Positions 17,096-61,100 of a stretch of 64,000 nucleotides of DNA are shown in pieces. Source of the stretch: Paramacrobiotus metropolitanus (taxonomy: Eukaryota > Tardigrada > Eutardigrada > Parachela > Macrobiotidae); the NCBI RefSeq assembly GCF_019649055.1, contig NW_026570309.1, positions 124,001 to 188,000 of the forward strand, in the 5' to 3' direction. Both the position numbers and the translations under genes were made by a program. A model generated the notes under the pieces. That model ran no database searches, was not told the origin of the DNA, and saw nothing but the letters and a program-made list of their open reading frames with translations. Each line of letters opens with the position of its first letter. The first letter of the stretch is position 1.

Positions 17096-17167
17096 AAGAT
17101 GTCAAGGAAATAACAAGTTAGAGATGTAAGATCTTACATCTCTAACTTGTTATTTCCTTGACATCTT
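17096..17167. repeat. Perfect 72-bp spacerless palindrome
   Basis: Two 34-base arms match without error around a central GATC, itself self-complementary, so all 72 bases form an uninterrupted inverted repeat. It could extrude as a cruciform or form a 34-bp RNA hairpin. It sits at the border between the decayed and the intact secreted-protein modules. Confidence 0.95.
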
Positions 17168-26700: not shown

Positions 26701-29700
26701 CTTTTGAAGTGGTTTAAACTTTGACTGTCGTCATGCCGATAGTGCGCTAGCTGCTTATTTTGTTTGTATGTGACGAAATACAAATTATCTACATATTACC
26801 CTACCGATTATACTTCCGGTTATATAAAAACGGCGCGCTTCGGCGACAGCTTTATTACGCGGCGGATTAATGTTAATGAATTTCAGGGAGCGCCGGTGGA
26901 TGCACAGGATAAAGCCGGCAACACCCCGCTCATCAGTGCGGCATCGCAGGCGGCCGAGGATTGTATCTCTGAGCTGCTGTTCCACGGCGCCGACATGTCG
27001 GTCCAGAACAAGGACGAACGCAATTTCCTGCATTATGTTATCATCAGCGGGGCCGATCAGCATACTATATCTAAAGAAATCAACGACGTACGTCAATGAA
27101 TACAAAATGTTTAATCATGGTCGTTGCGTCATAAACATTGTTGTTCGAAAACAGAACGAAATTTTCATGAAACTGCTGAATGAAAAAGACAAAAACGGCT
27201 ATACACCGTTGCATTATGCCGCGGAAGGCGGTCTGGGCGCGGCCAGTGAAGAGCTGATTAAAATGGGCGCGGAGGGTGCTATTAAGGATGGCCAGTCGCG
27301 ATCGCCACTCCATGTCGCTGCGGCGTACGAAAAACGCATGCATGACATTTCACGCGCGACGCTAACTATAGAATTTTTGTAGGTTTGGAAAATACAACAC
27401 GGCGAAAAAACTGCTGGAATCTCCGCAAGGACTGAACACTATCAACGCATACGATCGGCAAGGTAAATGCTTAAAGGTCACCACCGCTATTGGTATTGCA
27501 ATAAGACTTTTGCTTTTAATAGGAAATACACCACTGCATCTTGCCGCCGCGGAAGGTCATAGTCGGATTGTGCAACTTCTGTTGACCAATGGAGCTTTGA
27601 TTCATAAGTAATCTGGAACCATACAAAAGTTATCACAACGTTCGCAGATTTACTAGCGTTACATGTAAATAACGAATGCTGTTGCTAGGAATTTTTCGGG
27701 AAAAACGGCGCTTCACCTTGCGGCTATGCAAAACAGCCGTGGTAAGCCACTTACAAAAATTTATTTAGGAGCAACTGCTCTACGCTTGTATTTGTAATAA
27801 CTGTGATTCAAATAGAATCCTGTGCGCTGCTCCTGAAAAGTTACGGCTATCTGGCACAAATCAAAGACCGGGATGGTGTACGTATTTCTCATTACTTAGA
27901 TGGAGCTACTTTGGTTTGCAACGCAAAATGCACATTCTGTTAAGAATTCTCTAACGGCACGATCTACTGCAGAATTCGGCATTACACGATGCGGCGGAGC
28001 GCGATGCCGGCGATTGCGTGGATTTCCTTCTGACATCAGGAGCGGAAATTACGCCCAATAAAGCCGGAGCACTACCGCTGGATTTGGCGATTTATAACAA
28101 GAACGAAATCTCCGTCGCCGCTATGATGGATCATCCGCGTTGGGAAGAGCTTCTGGCATACCCGTCCAAATTCTACAAATGGCCAATTTTGGGGCTGATT
28201 AAAAAGCTGCCGGAAGTCGTCGAGGTACTGCGATTTTTAGAGTGTATGGCTCTGCGGCGTCGCATTCTGCATTGCGAATAGATAATTTTTGCATTTCTCG
28301 TATAAGTAAAATAATAATTTAATGTAACACAAAATACTGAAATTTAATAAATCTAAATATAAACTAGTAATATTACGTACTGTCCGATATATATACGCAT
28401 ATAACGCGTATGGGTGGCGCAGCCGTAATTTTATGAACGTATGTACAGCGTATGTACGTATATACGTATGTACTTGACACAAAATTACAGAGCCTTGTTT
28501 ACAGAACTTGCTCGATCGGTGCCAGTATTCATCCCAGTGTCATCCTTTATCGCCAGACTACTGTGTACGTCACTCAATGCGCTTTTGGTTTTCTTACAAG
28601 CAGTTCAGGATATGTCATATATAATTCCAGATTGTATATGACTTTCGTATTCTGGAGCCCGATAACGCTCCCACTCAGCCCGGTGACGCAACCGACAAAG
28701 CTAAAAGCATGGAAGCAATGAATGTAAGACGACATTAAAAGACAAAAAAGCGTTCGCACAGTGCTCAAACACGTTGCTCTATACAAGAATTTAATATACA
28801 GTGTATTGTCAAGTACGAACGACTGGATCTGCTAAGCCATCCCGTGTGCAAGCACTATCTAGACACCAAATGGTAAGAAAGGTCGCCTTCGTCTGCATTA
28901 TCAAGTTTCCATACTATACGACCAGATGTACAGTCTTACGTAACTAATAATTAAAGGACATCATACGGGATTTATTTCCATTTCGTCAACCTGTTGCTGT
29001 ACATCGTGTTCTTGGCTCTGTTGACCTTTCTCTTACTACGCGGCGTTGAGAAAGAGTTAAAGCCGCATATGACACGCCTCAGCCAGGAGAATATTTGGAA
29101 GTACAAACCCGAATTCAATCAAACGCACTTCGGTCCCGTCCTCTCACGTACGACTTTAATCAGTTGACGCCAATGTCGCAGGGGTTCCTCACGCTCGTCG
29201 TGATCTTTACAAGTTTTCAACTGTTAAAGAAAATAGCCGAGATTTACTGGCAAGTAAGTACATAATGAAGCTTTATCAGAAGATCCAAAATAATGCATGT
29301 ATCTTTATCAAAGGGATTCAAATATTTCTTCCGATTGGTAAATTACATGGAGGTGGCGCTGTACATTTCGGCGCTCTGCTTCGCTATTGGCCTGTTCGAC
29401 ACGGCGGATGCGTTGATTCCCTGGCGCGTACAGTGGATTCTCGGCGCTATAGCGGCGTTCTTCTCGTGGATAAATCTCATTGTACACTTTCAGCGTTACG
29501 GTAAACTGGGCGTGTATGTCAATATCTTCTTCCGTGGGATGCGAGTGTATTTCCGGGCGATATGCGTGTACTTTATTATGGTAGTCGCCTTCAGTATTGC
29601 GTTCTGTGTACTGAATCCGGAGAAGATCGTTCCTGATAAAGCTGCATTCTATCAAGTAAGAATCGCCTGTACTGGCTGTACAATATACATGTACGTAATT

Positions 29701-30823
29701 CCTTACGTAAAGGTTACATTGCTCTTGGGGAGATTTTAGCCGAAGTTTTTTCTGATGATACACGGTACGCTGGGCTTTTTGGAGCATCCACATGCAATAG
29801 ACAGCGGTCACAAAAAGCCATGGTTTAGTTGTAACTTTGATTTTAGGTTGATCATAAGGATGACGATCAGAACGATTACCAGACTGCCAGTGTGGATCTG
29901 GAGTCATCAATCCTCCGCGTTTCCGATATGCTGGTTGGAGACGTCGATGCCATTCAGAATTATATCAGCCCGTTATTAAACGACATGCTGGTTTTCCCGG
30001 CAGCGACATACTTTTTGGCGTTGGTGACTATTGGCATGGTTACGCTGCTCATTCAAGCCATTTTGGTGTGCTCACACTTCTCACTTGTTTGCACCGGCAA
30101 CTACTTAACCGGCGTTTTTCTTTTAACGCTTTTTGGTTCTAGATGAATATTGTGGTTCAGAATCTGCAAGAGGTGGAGCGCAATGCTTCCCTGAACATGT
30201 TGACCATGCTGGTAAAGCTGCATACCAATCTCGAGGAGAAACTACCCAAATGGTTTCTTCGGCGGGTTACGAAGCAGCAAGTGCGCGTTTTTCCCAACGC
30301 TTCCGGATGTCAACGGCTACAACAGTGGCTGAAGAAGTTGTCGGTGGGCGGACTGGATGACCTTCAGCAAAACGGGGGAGGCATTGCGCCCGGCGAGGAT
30401 ACCGCTGAACGATCCATTAACTCAACATTGTTGGTACAAAACATCCATGGCCAACGATCCAGGTAATTAAACCCAAAGATCATAAGTTGTCTCCCACTTT
30501 CTGAGTGTTTGTGCATCCGGCAAACTAACAAGTTCTGATAAAGGTTGCGAAATTTAAATGGGCGAATGGATCAGCATCGGGAGCTGCTGCAGAATATTGT
30601 GCAGCGGATGGAAATCAACATGGAAGCGGATGTTCTGGATGACCCTTTTAGCGCACAGCGCCGGATCTCCCGCTACGCTGTCCCCAAACAACCGCGACCG
30701 CGAATGCTGTGGAATCGCGTAAAGAATGCTCACAGAATCAAAGCCGCCTTAAAGAAAAAGCTCACGGATAAAACCGACAAGGAAAGCATTATGCGGGACA
30801 GCGAAGGCAGCGAGATCGACTAA
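23774..30823 (+). CDS. TRPA1: TRPA-family ankyrin cation channel, copy C (one-base frameshift in S1-S2 loop)
   Basis: A full-length TRPA gene of 20 exons: 23774-24052, 24709-24865, 25203-25378, 25800-26305, 26602-26650, 26887-27087, 27155-27324, 27383-27462, 27523-27607, 27689-27741, 27816-27877, 27973-28224, 28505-28564, 28631-28723, 28802-28872, 28957-29253, 29314-29655, 29847-30065, 30143-30462 and 30544-30823. All phases close except within 28957-29253. That exon is 297 nt where copy A has 298, and its frame breaks at 29138-29142, in a CC run where copy A has CCC. With that base restored it would encode about 1250 aa. N-terminal ankyrins include ETPVQIAGSL, TTPLHLACTQ and GNTPLHLAAAEG. 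The channel part has RYGKLGVYVNIFFRG and pore SDMLVGDVDA, almost identical to copy A. The ATG at 23774 is the first in frame, ahead of a Ser/Pro-rich N-terminus. Confidence 0.87.
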
Positions 30824-31442: not shown

Positions 31443-31567
31443 GCGACCGCGAATGCTGTGGAATCGCGTAAAGAATGCTCACAGAATCAAAGCAGCCTTA
31501 AAGAAAAAGCTCACGGATAAAACCGACAAGGAAAGCGTTATGCGGGACAGCGAAGGCAGCGAGATCG
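31443..31567 (+). repeat. Partial duplicate of the TRPA-C terminal exon
   Basis: These 125 bases match 30694-30818 (the end of the last TRPA-C coding exon) at 123 positions by eye. The copy stops just before the original stop codon, and its frame runs on to 31641. It has no obvious acceptor directly at its start, so it is more likely a recent fragment duplication than an alternative last exon. Confidence 0.85.
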
Positions 31568-32070
31568 TTGGTAAACCATTTTTCAGCTTTGTTTTCATAC
31601 AAATACTCGTAGATAGCCAGTGTAACGCGGCTACCAATTAAACGCCATTTCTTAATGCCATCTAATTGTTCGCTGCAGATTCATAGTTTCAAGCATGATT
31701 CTACGAGTATTAAGGAAAATATCAAGAATTTGAATGCGTAGTACCGTTTAAAAATGTCTTACATATGTTACACGATGCGTATAGCGATCTGAAAATCTTT
31801 AGCGCTCCTAAAACTAACGTTTTTAAAAGCAAGCGCAATGCCACAATAAGAACATGATTTACGGCAGGTTGATGACAATTAAATTACTATGGCTAAACTG
31901 CACTGCATCTCTTTATGCATTGAGCCACAATTTGCGAATTCGTTTTCCTTAACGGCCGGGATTTTCAGACTTCAACCTAGCTTAGTATCTACGTTGGGCA
32001 ATAATTAACACGCAATTAAAGCAGAGAAGCAAATTCGTGCGTGCTGCAGAGCCATTCGTACAAAGGTGCA
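31568..32070. other. Intergenic before the hairpin array
   Basis: Non-coding, no gene or RNA seen. The last bases before 32071 already resemble a degenerate end of an array unit (AGAGCC...GTACAA). Confidence 0.45.
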
Positions 32071-32920
32071 TATATCAGCCGCTACCAGTGCTGGCGCTAA
32101 TAAGCCCGGCTGTATATAGGCACGCTTGTTACGGTGCCACGGCAGAGCCGTGGTACCGTACAAGTGTGCATATATCAGCCGCTACCAGTGCTGGCGCTAA
32201 TAAGCCCGGCTGTATATAGGCACGCTTGTTACAGTGCCACGGCAGAGCCGTGGTACCGTACAAGTGTGCATATATCAGCCGCTACCAGTGCTGGCGCTAA
32301 TAAGCCCGGCTGTATATGCGCGTTGCGGTGCCACGGCAGAGCCGTGGTGCCATACGATATATATCAGCCGCTACCGTGCTGGCGCTAATAAGCCCGGCTG
32401 TATATAGGCACGCTTGTTCGGTACGGCGGAGCCGTAACCGATGGTCGTGCATATATCAGCCGCTACCAGTGCTGGCGCTAATAAGCCCGGCTGTATATAA
32501 CGGCGAGCGTTTGCCGGCAAGTGCATATATCAGCCGCTACCAGTGCTGGCGCTAATAAGCCCGGCTGTATATAGGCACGCTTGTTACGGTGCCACGGCAG
32601 AGCCGTGGTACCGTACAAGTGTATATATCAGCCGCTACCAGTGCTGGCGCTAATAAGCCCGGCTGTATATAGGCACGCTTGTTACGGTGCCACGGCAGAG
32701 CCGTGGTACCGTACAAGTCGGCATATATCAACCGCTACCAGTGCTGGCGCTAATAAGCCCGGCTGTATATAGGCACGCTTGTTACGGTGCCACGGCAGAG
32801 CCGTGGTACCGTACAAGTGTGCATATATCAGCCGCTACCAGTGCTGGCGCTAATAAGCCCGGCTGTATATAGGCACGCTTGTTACGGTGCCACGGCAGAG
32901 CCGTGGTACCGTCCCGCGGA
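32071..32920. repeat. Tandem array of nine ~100-bp double-hairpin units
   Basis: Core copies start at about 32071, 32171, 32271, 32360, 32452, 32526, 32624, 32724 and 32824, so spacing is 100, 100, 89, 92, 74, 98, 100 and 100. Each unit has a conserved core of about 60 bp whose ends pair (CAGCCG near the start with CGGCTG near the end, extended by TATAT/TATATA). A GC-rich linker follows and usually forms a second hairpin (GTGCCACGG, loop CAGAG, CCGTGGTAC). Linkers vary more than cores. The unit is not a multiple of three, so the open frames across it are not protein genes. Confidence 0.93.
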
Positions 32921-32955
32921 GTGGTAGTTTGGTCCCGGCTGATATTAGGAGATTT

Positions 32956-33031
32956 GCAGCACGTAACGTGCTGCACAGCCTCCATACTAATTTCTCGTAG
33001 AGCCGTCAGAAGCGCAGCACGTGACGTGCTG
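32956..33031. repeat. Two related short palindromes after the array
   Basis: At 32956-32974 a 9-bp-arm palindrome with one central base (GCAGCACGT/ACGTGCTGC) and at 33015-33031 a related 8-bp-arm version (CAGCACGT/ACGTGCTG), 40 bases apart. Confidence 0.85.
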
Positions 33032-34706: not shown

Positions 34707-34792
34707 CTGCAGGAGCGAATATTAAGCGAAAACTGCGGCCGCGTTTTAAGTCGCCAGGCATCCGCCATCGGGATCCGCATTAGTGAGGCACA

Positions 34793-34929
34793 ACTTCCGT
34801 TTTGCCTGTCGGCTGTCAGTGCCTTCGTCACTCTACGCCAGTGACGAAGCTTATGCCAGTGTAGACACACGAGGGCATAAGCTTCGTCACTGGCGTAGAG
34901 TGACGAAGGCACTGACAGGCAAAGCGGAA
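34793..34929. repeat. Long near-perfect foldback (~57-64-bp arms, 16-base loop)
   Basis: Left arm 34793-34856 pairs with right arm 34873-34929 around a short loop. The arms differ mainly by a seven-base insertion in the left arm (GGCTGTC, which looks like a local duplication) and one base pair. A smaller hairpin (GCATAAG/CTTATGC) follows near 34945-34962. It lies between the aprataxin remnant and U2AF1. It may be a foldback/MITE-type element; no flanking duplication was identified. Confidence 0.85.
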
Positions 34930-35180
34930 GTTGTTGCGATCTCGCATAAGCTTGCTTATGCAACATTTTTTGTGTGCTTAGTGCTTTCCGTCCTTTCCGA
35001 TTTCATGATTTGTCGATTTTCCTCATCTTGCCAGAGCTGCCAGTTTATTTTACAGTGCGATTTTACGTTTTCAGATTGCTGTCATAAATTTCTGCCTTTA
35101 CAATACCATTCGTCAGGAATACGCGCAGATTCCCCGACGATCAGTGAACGTCGTCAGTTACTGATCACAGTACCACAAAT

Positions 35181-36777
35181 ATGGCCGAGTATCTGGCATC
35201 CATCTTCGGGACGGAGAAGGACAAAGTCAACTGTTCCTTCTACTTTAAGATCGGCGCCTGCCGTCACGGCGACCGCTGCTCGCGTATCCACAACAAGCCC
35301 ACCTTCAGCCAGACCATCGTGCTGCTGAACGTCTACCAGAACCCGCAGAACAGCGCCCAGACGGCGGACGGCTCGCATCTGGGCAACATCACCGAGACGG
35401 AGATCCAGGAGCATTTCGACCAGTTCTTCGAGGAGATCTTCACCGAGGTGGAGGACCGCTACGGGGAGATTGAGGAGATGAATATCTGCGATAATCTCGG
35501 CGATCATCTGGTGGGCAATGTCTATATTAAGGTGAGGAAAGACGGTATGGGAACCCCCCTGTTGAGTTCTTGGAATGTTTTCTTGGGGAACTTTCTCTGT
35601 TCTTTTCCGATTTTCGAACGGGATGGCTGGCAAAGGTTTTTGCAGCTGGTGATAATGTTTAATTATCATTTCTAAGCAGTCGTTAGAAAATTTTCGCAGC
35701 TGACTTTTGACTGCTCTCGAAAACTTCGAATTCTTGAGCTTGAAAAAGTTTTTTCATGTTGTTATTTTTGGGTTTTATACCTTTATGGATTTTTATCCAT
35801 TAATTTTCGGATTTATTCCGTCGCGCTTAATGTTGAAAGCCTTATTATATTTTATGTAATTTTGCGTTGAAGATTTCAAACAGTAAGACTAGTAAATTTT
35901 CGGGTTTTAATTTTGTTTATGGCGTATTTGCAGTTTCGTCGCGAGGAGGACGCCGAGCGAGCCGTTAACGAGCTGAATAATCGCTGGTTCAACGGCCGTC
36001 CCATCTATGCGGAACTGTCACCCGTTACGGACTTCCGCGAGGCCTGCTGTCGGCAGTATGAAATGGGCGAGTGCACCCGGGGAGGGTTCTGCAATTTCAT
36101 GCATCTGAAACCGATCAGTCGCGAACTGCGCAAGTACGTTGTCGTTTCAGTCTCTTATTTGGCTGTAACAATTCTGCTCCTTGCATGGTTCACTCGCAAG
36201 CGGCAATATCTTATAGTTGCCTAATATTTTATTAGTCAACTTGTCAAGTATTCCATCTATCCGAAATACCGAAAAAAAGTAAAATATGATTAAAAATCAT
36301 TGTAAGTGTAGCATCTGACCTGGAAAACTGCATACATAAGTAATTTACTAATTTATGCACACTAACGCTGTATTGTGATGCTGTTGATGTGCCAAATTTT
36401 AAAGCCAGATTTTTTTCAGCAGAATAATCAATAACGTTTACGAATTTATATCATCAGTGAAATACATTCTAAAATTTAACATGGTCTCTTATGCTTAAAA
36501 TAAGCGATTGTTTTGCCTTTATTATTCTGGTGCTGTCTTCGTTTTCCACTCTAGTCCACTTTGAACATATTTTACCTTTACTTTATTGTTGCTGTTGTAT
36601 AGGCGATTGTATAATCGTCGTCCCGGAGCGTCGTTCGGCGGCCATCGCGGCAGTTCGCGTTCACGCAGTCCACCGCGGAAGCGCGGACGTGATGACTATG
36701 ATGATCGACGCGGTGGTGGCGATCGGCGCAATTTTGGTGGACGCGGCGGGGGTGGTGGTCGGCGCGATCGCTACTGA
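35181..36777 (+). CDS. U2AF1: U2AF 35-kDa subunit (3' splice-site AG recognition)
   Basis: Exons 35181-35531, 35934-36133 and 36603-36777 close in phase and give 241 aa, the normal family length. The protein pairs with U2AF65 and recognises the AG at the 3' end of introns in the nucleus. It starts MAEYLASIFGTEKDKVNC like the human protein. First C3H zinc finger: C18, C27, C33, H37. A UHM/pseudo-RRM follows, with FEEIFTEVEDRYGEIEEMN and the NNRWFNG tryptophan motif. Second C3H finger: C156, C164, C170, H174. The C-terminus has a short SR stretch (SSRSRSPPRKR) and then an RGG/Gly-rich tail (GGGDRRNFGGRGGGG). No breaks were seen. Confidence 0.97.
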
Positions 36778-37312: not shown

Positions 37313-38216
37313 ATGTCGTATATGCTGCCACATTTACAAAACGGCTGGCAAGTGGACCAGGCTATTTTATCGGAAGAAGACCGCGTGGTGGTTATCCGGT
37401 TCGGCCACGACTGGGATCCGACGTGTATGAAAATGGATGAGGTCAATCCATAAAACATCTGTGGTAACTTGAAACGCGGTTACAACATCTGTGGTAACAC
37501 TTCAACAAAATTAATAATTTTTTGGTTAAGTATTTGCTTTTATTTTCCGTCCATGATATGACGCAGTATATAATTAATAATTTATGTCTATCAGCGCAAG
37601 AATACAATAGAATTACGTGAAAACACAGTTAATTTTGTATTTCGTTTTTCTTAGTAGTTACAATTTACAAACAGGAAATTAAATCAAAACTTAATGGTTA
37701 GAAACACCTGACTTGGTAGTGGATGCATGGCCAACTTTACATGACCATTACGTGCAGTCGGTGCAGACAGCAGAAATACTGCTTACGGTATTTTTGAAAT
37801 GAACAATAATATCAACCGAAAGTTAATTGTAAAATTTCTTTTATTTCATGCATGTTTTAATAGATTGTACTATTATTTGAAACAATTGTTATTAAATTAT
37901 ATTCGTTTATTGACAGACGCTGTTTCGCATCGCGGAGAAAGTGAAGAATTTCGCGACCGTGTATTTAGTGGACGTATCGGAAGTGGGAGATTTTAGTAAA
38001 ATGTACGAATTATACGATCCGTGCACGGTGATGTTCTTCTTCCGCAACAAGCACATCATGATCGATCTGGGCACGGGCAACAACAACAAGATCAACTGGG
38101 CGATCGAGGACAAACAGGAAATGATCGATATCATCGAGACGGTGTACCGCGGCGCCCGGAAGGGGCGGGGCCTGGTCATATCGCCCAAAGATTACTCCAC
38201 GAAATACCGCTACTGA
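37313..38216 (+). CDS. TXNL4A: DIM1 / TXNL4A, U5 snRNP thioredoxin-like splicing factor, copy 1
   Basis: Exons 37313-37441 and 37917-38216 give exactly 142 aa, the universal DIM1 length. It is a thioredoxin-fold protein of the U5 and U4/U6.U5 tri-snRNP, needed for pre-mRNA splicing. Conserved blocks include MSYMLPHL, NGWQVDQAILSEEDRVVV, FGHDWDPTCMKMDE, ELYDPCTVMFFFRNKHIM and the end KDYSTKYRY. The donor GTCAAT is weak. Compared with the family consensus this copy carries substitutions (LQN for LHN, VSEVGDFSKM for the usual TEVPDFNKM), so it is the more diverged of the two copies. The frame is intact. Confidence 0.95.
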
Positions 38217-38986: not shown

Positions 38987-40095
38987 TCATGCAGCGCTCT
39001 GGGCGGATGTCGCAGCAGCGGTTGTGGCCTCCGTTGCATTCTGCGACTGGGAGGCCGACGCGTCGGAAGCGGCGGCAGCGGAGGACCCGGCGGAAGAGGA
39101 CGTGGTGTTGGTGTTGCTGGCGTCGGCATTGTGACCGGCCAGGGCAGCAGCAGCGCCCGCCGCGGAGGGCAGCGGCTGGGAGGCCAGATTGGGAATGGCG
39201 TCGCGTTCACGCTGGACGATTTCTTCGGTGCTCAGAGATTTCCCTCTGCAATCCAAGAAATCGTATATTCATAAACATATGAGGTATAGCTTCCATAGAA
39301 TAATCTCTTACAGCCACCGATAGGGCCGTTTTTTACGGCAGTTAGTTATGAAACTACATGTACACGGGCGTGATCGGCAATAATTAAATCGTATCAATGT
39401 ATAGCAACTGAACACCTTTATACATATATAATTATATATTTTTGATTAACGCAAAGTATATTGATAACATTCCATTATTTAATAATTTATACTGATGATA
39501 ATTTTTCGGGATTTTGTTTGCGCACTGTGCAATGTAAATAAATATAAAGCAATCATATCAGTATAAATCATAAAATAATGGTTGATAATTTTAAAATTGA
39601 TAAATTTAAAATTGATAAATTATAAAATAATGATTGATAATTTTTCGGGATTTTGTTTGCGCACTGTGCAATGTAAATAAATATAAAGCAATCATAATCA
39701 AAACATGTTGTCATATCTGTATTACTGTATGCATATGGTAGGTCGATATTAAAAGTTACTGGACGTAACCATATAAAGCCTTATTGAGTTACTGTATGTA
39801 GAAATGGATTTGTAGTGCAATGGCAAATTGATGATGTTCCGGACAGAACAAGTTCAGTCAAGAATTTCGTAGGTAGCGGAAACAGTTAGAAATGGTGTAA
39901 AAATCAAAAATATTTTTAGAACAGTAATCTTTTTCTCGATAGACATGTCACGTACCCTGCTCCGTGAATAAAGGGTGCCGGCAGGACAACGGTAGAATTA
40001 TTCAGACCGGAAGCGGTCAGATTCTGATTTTGCCCGTACAACACCGGCACAACTGCCAAAACTCCCACCATTAACACGGTATAAATTCCGGCCAT
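38987..40095 (-). CDS. Small secreted Ser/Ala/Thr-rich protein
   Basis: Minus-strand exons 40095-39956 and 39245-38987 close in phase and give 132 aa ending in TGA. Residues 1 to about 22 form a signal peptide (YTVLMVGVLAVVPVLYG). The mature start has two N-glycosylation sequons (NLT, NNST). A charged segment follows (SLSTEEIVQRERDAIPNLAS), then a C-terminal half made almost only of Ala, Ser, Thr, Asn and Gln. I do not recognise the family; such tails occur in mucin-like or structural secreted proteins. The intron (39955-39246) contains a 60-bp direct repeat. A GC-rich plus-strand frame over the second exon is a shadow. Confidence 0.65.
39497..39695. repeat. 60-bp direct repeat in intron
   Basis: 39497-39556 and 39636-39695 are identical by eye over 60 bases, with an AT-rich spacer. 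They lie in the intron of the Ser/Ala-rich gene and look like a local duplication. Confidence 0.88.
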
Positions 40096-41175: not shown

Positions 41176-42006
41176 TCAGTAGCGGTATTTCGTGGAGTAA
41201 TCTTTGGGCGAAATCACCAAACCCCGTCCCTTCCGCGCCCCCCGGTACACCGTCTCAATGATATCCACCATCTCCTGTTTGTCCTCCAGCGCCCAGTTGA
41301 TCTTGTTGTTGTTGCCCGTGCCCAGATCGATCATGATGTGCTTGTTGCGGAAGAAGAACATCACCGTACACGGATCGTATAATTCGTACATTTTATTGAA
41401 ATCCGGCACTTCCGTCACGTCCACTAGGTAGATGGTGCAGAAGTTTTCACTTTCTCCGCTATACCAAATAACGTCTGCAAAATTCATTTTGTTAAATCAA
41501 AATTCTGCTGCGCGCACCGTACAGTCCACATGTGCGTAATATTTATTTAGTGTACTGCGTTAACTTAAAAACGATTTCTCGAACATAATTCTTGCACTGC
41601 GGTCTGCGAAGCAAATGGCTTTCGATAAAACTGTCGATCTGACATGGTAATACCATCACGGTTTTAATTTTTTAATTAACAATTTGCCGCTAGAATTTTA
41701 TTCATATGTAAAGTGAATAATCTGTGAGGTGGGAAATGTTGAAACGAGATAAACAGCAAATTCTGGGACTCTGAGCTTCCGTCAATATTTCGAGTGTGTT
41801 CGTACTCAACAATGTCGCGTGCGCAGTTCGCGTATGCGTCAAGCTTAGGGGAATGATGGTAAAAAAACTGTCATTACCTCGTCCATCTTCATGCACGTGG
41901 GATCCCAATCATGCCCGAAACGAATGACGATAACACGATCCTCTTCGGATAAAATGGCTTGATCCACTTGCCAACCGTTATGGAGATGGGGAAGCATGTA
42001 CGACAT
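41176..42006 (-). CDS. TXNL4A: DIM1 / TXNL4A copy 2 (single-base frame break)
   Basis: Minus-strand exons 42006-41878 (129 nt, as in copy 1) and 41474-41176 (299 nt, against 300 in copy 1). The frame breaks at about 41444-41447, where GTGAAAAC has four A where five would keep AEKVKNF in frame. Everything else is intact to KDYSTKYRY and TGA. This copy is closer to the family consensus than copy 1 (LHNGWQ, VTEVPDFNKM, EMVDIIE), which argues for long-term selection and makes a sequencing or assembly error likelier than a pseudogene. The donor is a good GTAATG. It is divergently oriented to USP34, with 1.15 kb between the start codons. Confidence 0.85.
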
Positions 42007-58100: not shown

Positions 58101-61100
58101 TTTTGTCGCATCGCCATGATGGATGCACTGTGACAGCTGTCAGATGATCAGTACATAAGTAGCCAGTGGCGACTCGTATTAATCAAAATATAAATATATA
58201 AATTAAAATATAAATTAGAAACATTAATGTACTTGCCCCTTTTGTAGATTATTTTAGTGATTCCACCCCAGTGGCATAAATCAGTTTTAAAGTTTTAATT
58301 TCCTGTGCAAATGAAAATATTTTTGGTATTTTAGGTGAATAATATGCGAAATCTGTACGAATCACTGAACGACGTCTGCGTCAAGGACGTCCTGGAAGGC
58401 AACAACATGTACAAATGCGGCCAGTGCAATCGCGAAGTCCGCGCCGAAAAGCAGGCCTGCTTCCGCAATCTCCCGGAGATCCTGGTGCTGAACACGCTAC
58501 GCTACACCTTCAACATGGTGACCATGCAGCGCGAGAAAGTCAACACGCACTTCACCTTCCCCATCGTGCTGGACATGGCGCAGTACATGGAGGAAAATCT
58601 CTTCAAGGGCGCCGACGGGATGGGCAGTCATCCCGAGCAGTACAAGTACGAGCTCATCGGGGTGACGGTGCACACGGGAACGGCCGAGGGCGGCCATTAC
58701 TACAGCTTCATCCGCGATCTGGAGTGCGGCGAGGCCGACCACTGGCTGCTCTTCAATGACGCCGAGGTGCGTTGGGTTTTGATTTTGTTTAGTTAACGAT
58801 TTTGCCAGGTCTTTTCCTGAAATTTATCACATCGTATTTAAATTATAATCCATTTCGTATACGTGAATTTAGTCGTTGTTTATTTCATTTCATTTTTATT
58901 GCGGTGGATTTATTTAATTTACGTTTACCTTTTTACGCGAATTTAATTGTATAAATTACTTTATTGTGATTATGAATTTATAGGCCTCAGGAGATTTAAT
59001 TCTTAAATTACTAATTTATCCGCGCAAGTTTTGCATTTAAGTTCGTACATGTTAAATGTACAGATCCTGAACTTATTTTTCTAAGTTAAAATTTTATTTT
59101 GAAATAAATTTAATTAGTTAAAGGTTTATTATTCCTGAATTTAATTGCTTTATTCAATTCATTGGAAATAGAAGTTTATTTACGGATTTTATTGATTTTT
59201 GTTTCATGGCTTTGTGAAATTATTTAGGTACGGATGTTTGATTCGGAGCAGCTGGGCCCGGAGTGTTTCGGCGGTGAGACCAAGCAGTTCGATAATAATG
59301 GTGATCGGTATTTGGATTTTGGATTGGAGAAAACAAACAGTGCTTACATGCTGTTTTACCAGAAAGTTGACCGGGTAAGAAGTTGACTTTGCGTTCGAGA
59401 ATTCAGAACGGAAAATGCAGTTGCACATTTCGGTAGGTTCGGGAGCAGTTAAATGTCCGAGTGGCGTCTCCCTGTGTTCCCAAGGAAATCCAGCAGTGGG
59501 TGTGGAAGGATACCACGGAATTCGTGCAGGATATCAACATTTACGACCGGTATTACTTTGATTTTCTGTGGAAACTCTGCTATGCCGCGACACCCAGCAC
59601 GTTCACGCTGAAAGACCCGCATTCCGATCCCGTGTTGCTGACGGGACAGTTAGCCATCAGGTAAGTTACTGTTACAGGTTTTAATAAAATTCACAGCGTG
59701 TGAGCCTGTGTTTTATGACTTATTGTTTGAATTTTGCACTTCAGATTCAGTTTTTCCATACACCGTTTTTTCGTTATTAAATTGACTAGGTTTTCGGTCG
59801 TTGCAGACGTGGTTCAGTGTTTTCGTGCATTTTTTTGAAAATTAAAATTTACTGGTTAGAATTTTAAAGCCGGACTTCGTGAGCGAAGCAAAATGGGTTA
59901 ATAATATGTTAACGTCCTAGACGTTAATTACCATTAGCTGCTGTTTATGCTGGAAAGTGGTGTCGTAGTGCGGCGGCAGAATATCCATGCTTCCGAGAAC
60001 GGTGTTTGAGTTAGTAAATCCTGCATCAACTGGAAGCGCTAGCGCAGTTAACAGTTACCAGCAAATTTTTTCTGTTTTCCTTGTAAAATACTATTATGGA
60101 TCAGAGTGCGTATCGTAAATAACGAGTTCAAGAGAAGAGACCACATATTTTCATATTTTTCTAGTAATCACAAAGTTTTCTTCCTTTTTCGAAATTATTG
60201 TTTCATAATTTGGGAGGCGGGGTTATAATTTTCAATGGGATATCTATGTGGCAATAAATCCTTAATATAATAATATAGTAATCAGATTTTTTACGGTTTT
60301 CAGTTGAATCAGATTTATTCACCACTTTGTGCGACAATAGTATTTGGCCATATTTCCTGAATAATTAAATATTTTTTCATTTCTTTTCGATTCTTGATCA
60401 GTAATTTTCACTGGTCTTATTTTATTTCAGTGCTTATTTAATTTGAGAATAGCCACGTATTTGGTGATCTTACGAGTACAGTTCACTGATTGTAAGAAAA
60501 TTTTGCTTGATAGTTTTCTCTGGGAGACGCTGATCCGCGCTCGCGACCGCAGCCAGTTCACCAATTTCTTTGATTTATCGGTGCGGCTGGCGCTGACGCA
60601 GCCGAGCGTGGTGGAGTGGTTCATGCGGCAGATGGTGGACGATCATCGGTGGCTGTTCGGGATCCTGGTGCAGTGTCCCATCAGCAGTCTCCGCTCGACC
60701 TTCCAGCGCTTTATCACCAACTTATTCCAAAAACTCCGCCCGCAGCCTCAAATCAATCTGATTGAGTTCTACGCCCACGAAGTGCCGGGATTCGCGTGGC
60801 AGTCGTTGGTGGGACGGTTCTGCCGGAAGTGTATCGGGTATCTCGACGAAGCCGAAGTCCGGTGAGCATAATTATTGTGGACTTTTTGCATTATCTGATT
60901 ACCTTTCATTTCTGTGTGCGGTGCATTGCGCTAAATCGAAGTCTCTGTACTAATGAATGCGAAACAACCACTGCAAATGATAAAATAAATGGGATTAAAT
61001 CATATAACAAAATTTTACTATGCAAAAATTAATGGATTGACCTGATTACTGGAAAAATATTATAAGCAACGAAAGAGAACGGGGAGAAGGTCAGATGGCT

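Follow-up and report, generated by a model that had tools for sequence, protein, structure and literature searches.

In the window (the whole 64-kb stretch of DNA analysed here), we found nine head-to-tail repeat units, each of ~100 bases and self-complementary, which occupy positions 32061-32913 and have a TRPA-type gene on one side and a U2AF35-type gene on the other. With a probability of roughly two in three, these units represent a short satellite-like (minisatellite) array, of which the monomer is composed of a palindromic stretch and a 48-nt core. No RNA function is required by this reading. The tandem arrangement of near-identical units, their palindromic design, the larger amount of change between the cores than within them, and the fact that two of three diverged units no longer fold as wholes all count for the satellite-like reading. 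On the other hand, the diverged units reside in the middle of the array, which is not predicted by simple unequal exchange, and the tests based on random edits and on swapped halves lean towards hairpins that have been kept.

Layout of the array and its surroundings

A unit was defined as the 48-nt core with an arm on its 5' and 3' sides, followed by a linker hairpin, and the nine units so defined make up the entire array (Table 1). The cores start at positions 32070, 32170, 32270, 32359, 32451, 32525, 32623, 32723 and 32823, and Tandem Repeats Finder (TRF) splits the array into two calls of ~100-bp period (32057-32499 and 32518-32912). Both results bear out the preliminary description of this DNA, which had proposed nine units of ~100 bp. 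As core-to-core steps such as 100, 89, 92, 74 and 98 bp cannot be divided by three, the array is not a coding repeat; its monomers are noncoding, near-identical and arranged head to tail, as those of satellites and minisatellites are. A satellite in the strict sense would have further arrays of its family in other parts of the genome; no second array of the same repeat was seen within the 64-kb window.

Table 1. Positions of the array, its parts and the features following it
Feature	Position	Strand	Remarks
Tandem array, nine units	32061..32913		core-to-core steps 100, 100, 89, 92, 74, 98, 100, 100 bp
Unit 1 core, 48 nt	32070..32117		identical in seven of the nine units
Common inter-core palindrome, 52 nt	32118..32169		single 23-bp hairpin; contains the linker hairpin 32129-32160
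Unit 3 core and following stretch	32270..32358		core intact; inter-core stretch 41 nt, 9 events
Unit 4 core	32359..32405		47 nt, one A missing
Stretch after unit 4 core	32406..32450		contains the deviant linker hairpin (32419-32440); 6 indels among 8 events
Unit 5 core	32451..32498		intact
Stretch after unit 5 core, 26 nt	32499..32524		common hairpin gone; 6-bp hairpin remains
Units 6-9	32518..32913		near-identical to units 1-2
Post-array fragment	32930..32945	inverted vs core	88% over 16 nt to positions near the core start
Right-flank hairpin	32955..32975		arm 9, loop 3; similar hairpin at 33015-33031

The window looks like part of an animal nuclear genome, judging from the predicted products of its genes: a segment of a TRPA1-like channel (29269-29739), a U2AF 35-kDa-type subunit (35163-35675) and a USP34-like hydrolase (58335-58796). 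To the left of the array, a 125-bp stretch (30694-30818) is duplicated at 31443-31567 with 98.4% identity, and the duplicated stretch is apparently the end of the TRPA-type gene. The locus thus seems to have been rearranged recently. Within the array, the diverged units 3-5 (32261-32524) lie in the middle, with uniform units on both sides. The edges of an array are usually expected to diverge first, and the divergence in the middle is contrary to that expectation.

Several other features were noticed in the window. At 17096-17167, two perfectly paired 32-bp arms enclose a loop of 8 nt; this hairpin may represent a foldback element or a miRNA-like locus, or may be a snap-back produced during assembly. 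An imperfect foldback, 83% identical to its own reverse complement, lies just upstream of the U2AF35-type gene (34790-34934). Two inverted copies of a gene, which we take to be TXNL4A/DIM1, are located at 37313-38216 and 41176-42006, the matching DNA pieces being 79% and 88% identical, and a direct repeat of about 70 bp (39489-39557 and 39627-39696) is 97% identical between its two copies.

Conserved cores and variable inter-core stretches

Seven of the nine cores are identical to one another, and the remaining two differ by a missing A (unit 4) and by a G to A change (unit 8). In total, the nine cores (432 nt) carry two changes, whereas the eight inter-core stretches (416 nt) carry 29 events; the 5' arm of the first unit and the terminal part of unit 9 lie outside this count. 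The difference is significant (Fisher's test, p = 1e-7) on the assumption that the events are independent and the boundaries are given; the core boundaries were set after the data were seen. The events are distributed unevenly, as 25 of the 29 fall in the stretches after cores 3-5. The alignment contains a run of 30 columns free of change, the chance of which depends on how the events are counted, being 0.0006 with 31 independent events, 0.020 with 20 and 0.22 with 12, and 0.019 if every diverged stretch is regarded as one block.

The preliminary description emphasised linkers that vary in sequence and yet keep pairing. This generalisation did not hold for the array, since the common linker is present with at most one change in six of the nine units (units 1, 2 and 6-9) and is mostly lost in unit 5. 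The linker of unit 3 carries a few changes, and unit 4 has lost its 5' arm. The likeness to repeat-spacer arrays had been regarded as superficial, and we agree. CRISPR arrays are prokaryotic and carry unique spacers between identical repeats, and a CRISPR-like array was rejected here because five of the eight inter-core stretches are alike (two events at most) and the surrounding genes are animal-like.

The cores of units 4 and 5 persist where the fold of the whole unit is gone, indicating that what was kept is the sequence of the core and not the outer fold. The pairs within the core are almost invariant and are therefore uninformative about pairing in either direction. In the satellite-like reading, the uniformity of the core may stem from protein binding, in a role like that of the CENP-B box, or from recombination between copies. 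A CTCF-like motif would be another conceivable reading of the core. Satellites are commonly reported to vary unevenly along the monomer and to retain conserved segments (PMC3694981). The satellite DNAs of Meloidogyne with a CENP-B-box-like motif, described in the same paper, are similar to the present array in being tandem and noncoding and in combining a conserved segment with uneven variability. The array differs from them in that its monomer is a pronounced palindrome and in that it is known here as one array of nine copies.

A kept core between varying arms is also what a ribozyme core would display, and the minus strand of the core is predicted to fold into a three-way junction. The units could in that case be tandem structured or self-cleaving RNAs, in which the conserved core is the active part of a new ribozyme, following a logic like that of retrozymes. 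Metazoan retrozymes are tandem repeats with one ribozyme per unit, their reported monomers being 150-450 bp long and carrying a hammerhead (PMC7229834). The present array resembles them as a tandem, noncoding animal repeat with a conserved core, and departs from them in its monomer of ~100 bp, in which the type I hammerhead expected of each unit was found neither as an Rfam match nor with a hammerhead-like regular expression (nine matches in the window, zero in the array). Furthermore, no Rfam family reached its gathering score across the window, the core alone barely folds beyond shuffled sequences (z = -1.10 on the plus strand and -1.38 on the minus strand), and the 5' arm is lost in unit 4. 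We consider the ribozyme reading highly improbable. Known RNAs were rejected as well: between 31900 and 33100, and up to an E value of 10, Rfam yielded two miRNA models only, their scores of 22.9 and 20.5 falling far short of the respective thresholds (68 and 70). ARAGORN, in its bacterial setting, found no tRNA.

Folding of the units and maintenance of the hairpins

The preliminary description portrayed the array as nine double-hairpin units. Seven units do fold, as RNA, far better than dinucleotide shuffles (z = -5.27, -5.74, -3.83, -4.92, -4.98, -3.67 and -6.48 for units 1, 2, 3, 6, 7, 8 and 9, respectively), but the description fails for units 4 and 5, which as wholes are no better than shuffles (z = -0.72 and -0.26). 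Thus, among the three diverged units, unit 3 folds well and units 4 and 5 do not; unit 5 retains just a 6-bp hairpin, which is built with different partners. Folded as DNA, unit 9 is strongly structured on both strands (z = -6.67 and -5.97). The self-pairing extends further than had been claimed, because the common 52-nt inter-core stretch constitutes one 23-bp hairpin and a core, the following gap and the next core together constitute one long hairpin. Several folds therefore compete, and the fold into two hairpins is one among them.

Such tandem hairpins, with stems of 20 to 23 pairs and a z value of -17 for the whole array (against 20 shuffles), bring to mind a hairpin-RNA (hpRNA) cluster, in which a long transcript would give rise to repeated hairpins that are cut by Dicer into endogenous siRNAs. 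The nearest functional analogue of the array would be hp-CG4068 of Drosophila, which is present in 20 tandem copies in D. melanogaster and nine in D. simulans (PMC10317233). The two are alike in carrying tandem hairpins within one array and in a similar copy number; the present array differs in being known from DNA alone and in that two of its nine units fold no better than chance. The stems are interrupted, units 4 and 5 behave like shuffles, and no exact match of at least 12 nt to the array, such as a target might carry, was found in the window outside 32001-33000. Moreover, any tandem palindrome would be expected to reach a whole-array z value of this kind. An hpRNA cluster is rather unlikely. 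We regard as quite improbable a more specific version, namely a nine-hairpin precursor on one strand, in which the 48-nt core would be the working part of a new small RNA and the outer hairpins would be its processing handles; such a precursor would be hpRNA- or ribozyme-like, with a core unlike any Rfam family.

The preliminary description argued that covariation in the linkers points to a structure that matters. We tested covariation on a MAFFT alignment of the nine units, which are related to one another and come from one locus, so that the power of the test is low. Pair cells changed on both sides amounted to three of 291, in three of 36 pairs. Two of them belong to unit 5, of which the predicted fold is without the helix concerned, and one belongs to a gapped part of unit 4. 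When the columns were shuffled 500 times, the count of double-changed cells and the covariation score were each reached once, the paired percentage (94.5) was never reached, and the number of pair types was reached 333 times, albeit related sequences may exceed such shuffles without any structure. A control with the partners slid by +1 also gave three double-changed cells. Swapping arms between units gave p = 0.53 for the outer stem of the core (nine units, consensus core) and p = 0.022 for the linker hairpin, for which unit 5 was excluded and eight units were compared. In the latter, unit 4 is the only one of which the own halves are more stable (-14.0 kcal/mol) than both forms half-swapped with the common partner (-12.1 and -11.2 kcal/mol). 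This short hairpin of unit 4 is the one clear sign of coupled change, and a weak one; a single template switch could give rise to it.

The linker in question (32418-32440) had been described as strongly different from the common one while its two arms still pair with a single bulge. We located the quoted arms at 32419-32427 and 32431-32440, and they do pair with one bulge. On alignment, however, the linker of unit 4 is the common linker with one and three bases missing from the 5' arm and two from the 3' arm, plus one substitution in the loop and one in an arm, and its pairs CGGT/ACCG and ACGGC/GCCGT are the same pairs as in the common linker. When edits were placed at random, the linker hairpin was at least as stable in 1.6% (full edit set) to 14% (fewer edits) of the cases.

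In units 3, 4 and 5, the larger inter-core hairpin was in no case more stable than both of its half-swapped forms. Compensation in the strict sense is therefore absent, as one or both of these forms surpassed the native stretch each time, and no clear compensatory substitution of the kind expected of a structured RNA was found among the nine related copies. With the few double-changed cells and the result for the outer stem, the step from covariation to a selected structure is not sustained. Part of the evidence leans to the side of the earlier claim. Besides the good fold of unit 3, random editing of the stretches that follow cores 3, 4 and 5 left a hairpin at least as stable as the native one in fractions of 0.015, 0.060 and 0.108 of the trials, respectively (p = 0.005 for the three combined), and the inter-core swap test gave p = 0.003 (0.024 without unit 5 and 0.023 without unit 4), although this test favours native pairs where both halves of one stretch have decayed. 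The random-edit results suggest that the palindromes have been kept somewhat better than expected under random editing, through some pressure or copying. DNA template switching has been proposed to create the stem of a hairpin in one event and to help maintain it, the evidence for maintenance being "circumstantial" in the authors' own word (PMC8794818). As proposed, template switching would keep palindromes without any selection on pairing.

Such a process accords with the satellite-like reading, in which the array would have grown by unequal exchange or replication slippage. Its palindromic stretches would form hairpins when single-stranded, and in that state would collect small deletions and templated (hairpin-copied) changes, which may be why the changed linker still pairs. 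Among the options offered in the preliminary description (a structured non-coding RNA, a cruciform-based satellite or a processing substrate), a hairpin-forming satellite is the best reading, and a processing substrate is a possibility.

Flanking sequences, relatives and implications

The flanks bear on a further alternative, in which a non-autonomous DNA element (Helentron/HINE or MITE) would have brought the array to this site as its internal tandem repeats. In HINEs, a short array resembling a satellite is often accompanied by a palindrome in the right flank; such elements also have a microsatellite and 11-12 bp subterminal inverted repeats (PMC7492417). Similarly, the present array is short and is followed by palindromes, with short hairpins lying 42 and about 100 nt past its end, the first being the right-flank palindrome at 32955-32975. 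The motif CATAC..CTCGTAG occurs on both sides of the array, at 31596 (+), 32983 (+) and 33095 (-), in the manner of element ends, and the similarity between the left flank and the inverted right flank was matched by only eight of 300 shuffles. Nevertheless, when random pairs of real segments of the window served as the reference, 72 of 3000 scored as high as the picked segments and 155 of 1000 as high as the whole flanks, so that the similarity is not significant by this standard. Exact inverted matches between the flanks reach 9 nt at most, a length attained in 850 of 1959 random pairs; the 11-12 bp subterminal inverted repeats were not found, and TRF listed no microsatellite in the left flank. 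A transposable carrier of this kind is accordingly unlikely. We also sought older, diverged units in the flanks and rejected them, as between 15 and 228 of 300 shuffles did equally well in the six comparisons made, of which that of the right flank on the minus strand was the strongest (15 of 300).

Searches for relatives with core patterns in viral and prokaryotic contigs returned 0, 0, 5 and 1 stretches, and one linker 18-mer returned two in viral contigs. These eight loci were dropped as chance similarities, the best match to the doubled unit being 17-22 nt among the matches listed. The repeat had no match in phage records. As the collections searched comprise viruses, prokaryotes and phages, this lack of relatives means little. 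No work on the repeat was found in the literature, as judged by titles and the openings of abstracts, which is no proof of novelty.

Should the array be transcribed and its RNA processed, it would represent a tandem cluster of hairpin RNAs similar to hp-CG4068, of which the conserved core would be new. If it is an ordinary satellite-like array, it would provide a small example of a palindromic tandem repeat imitating covariation: indels and hairpin-templated changes can leave the same stem behind, and pairing that persists is in itself no proof of a selected RNA.
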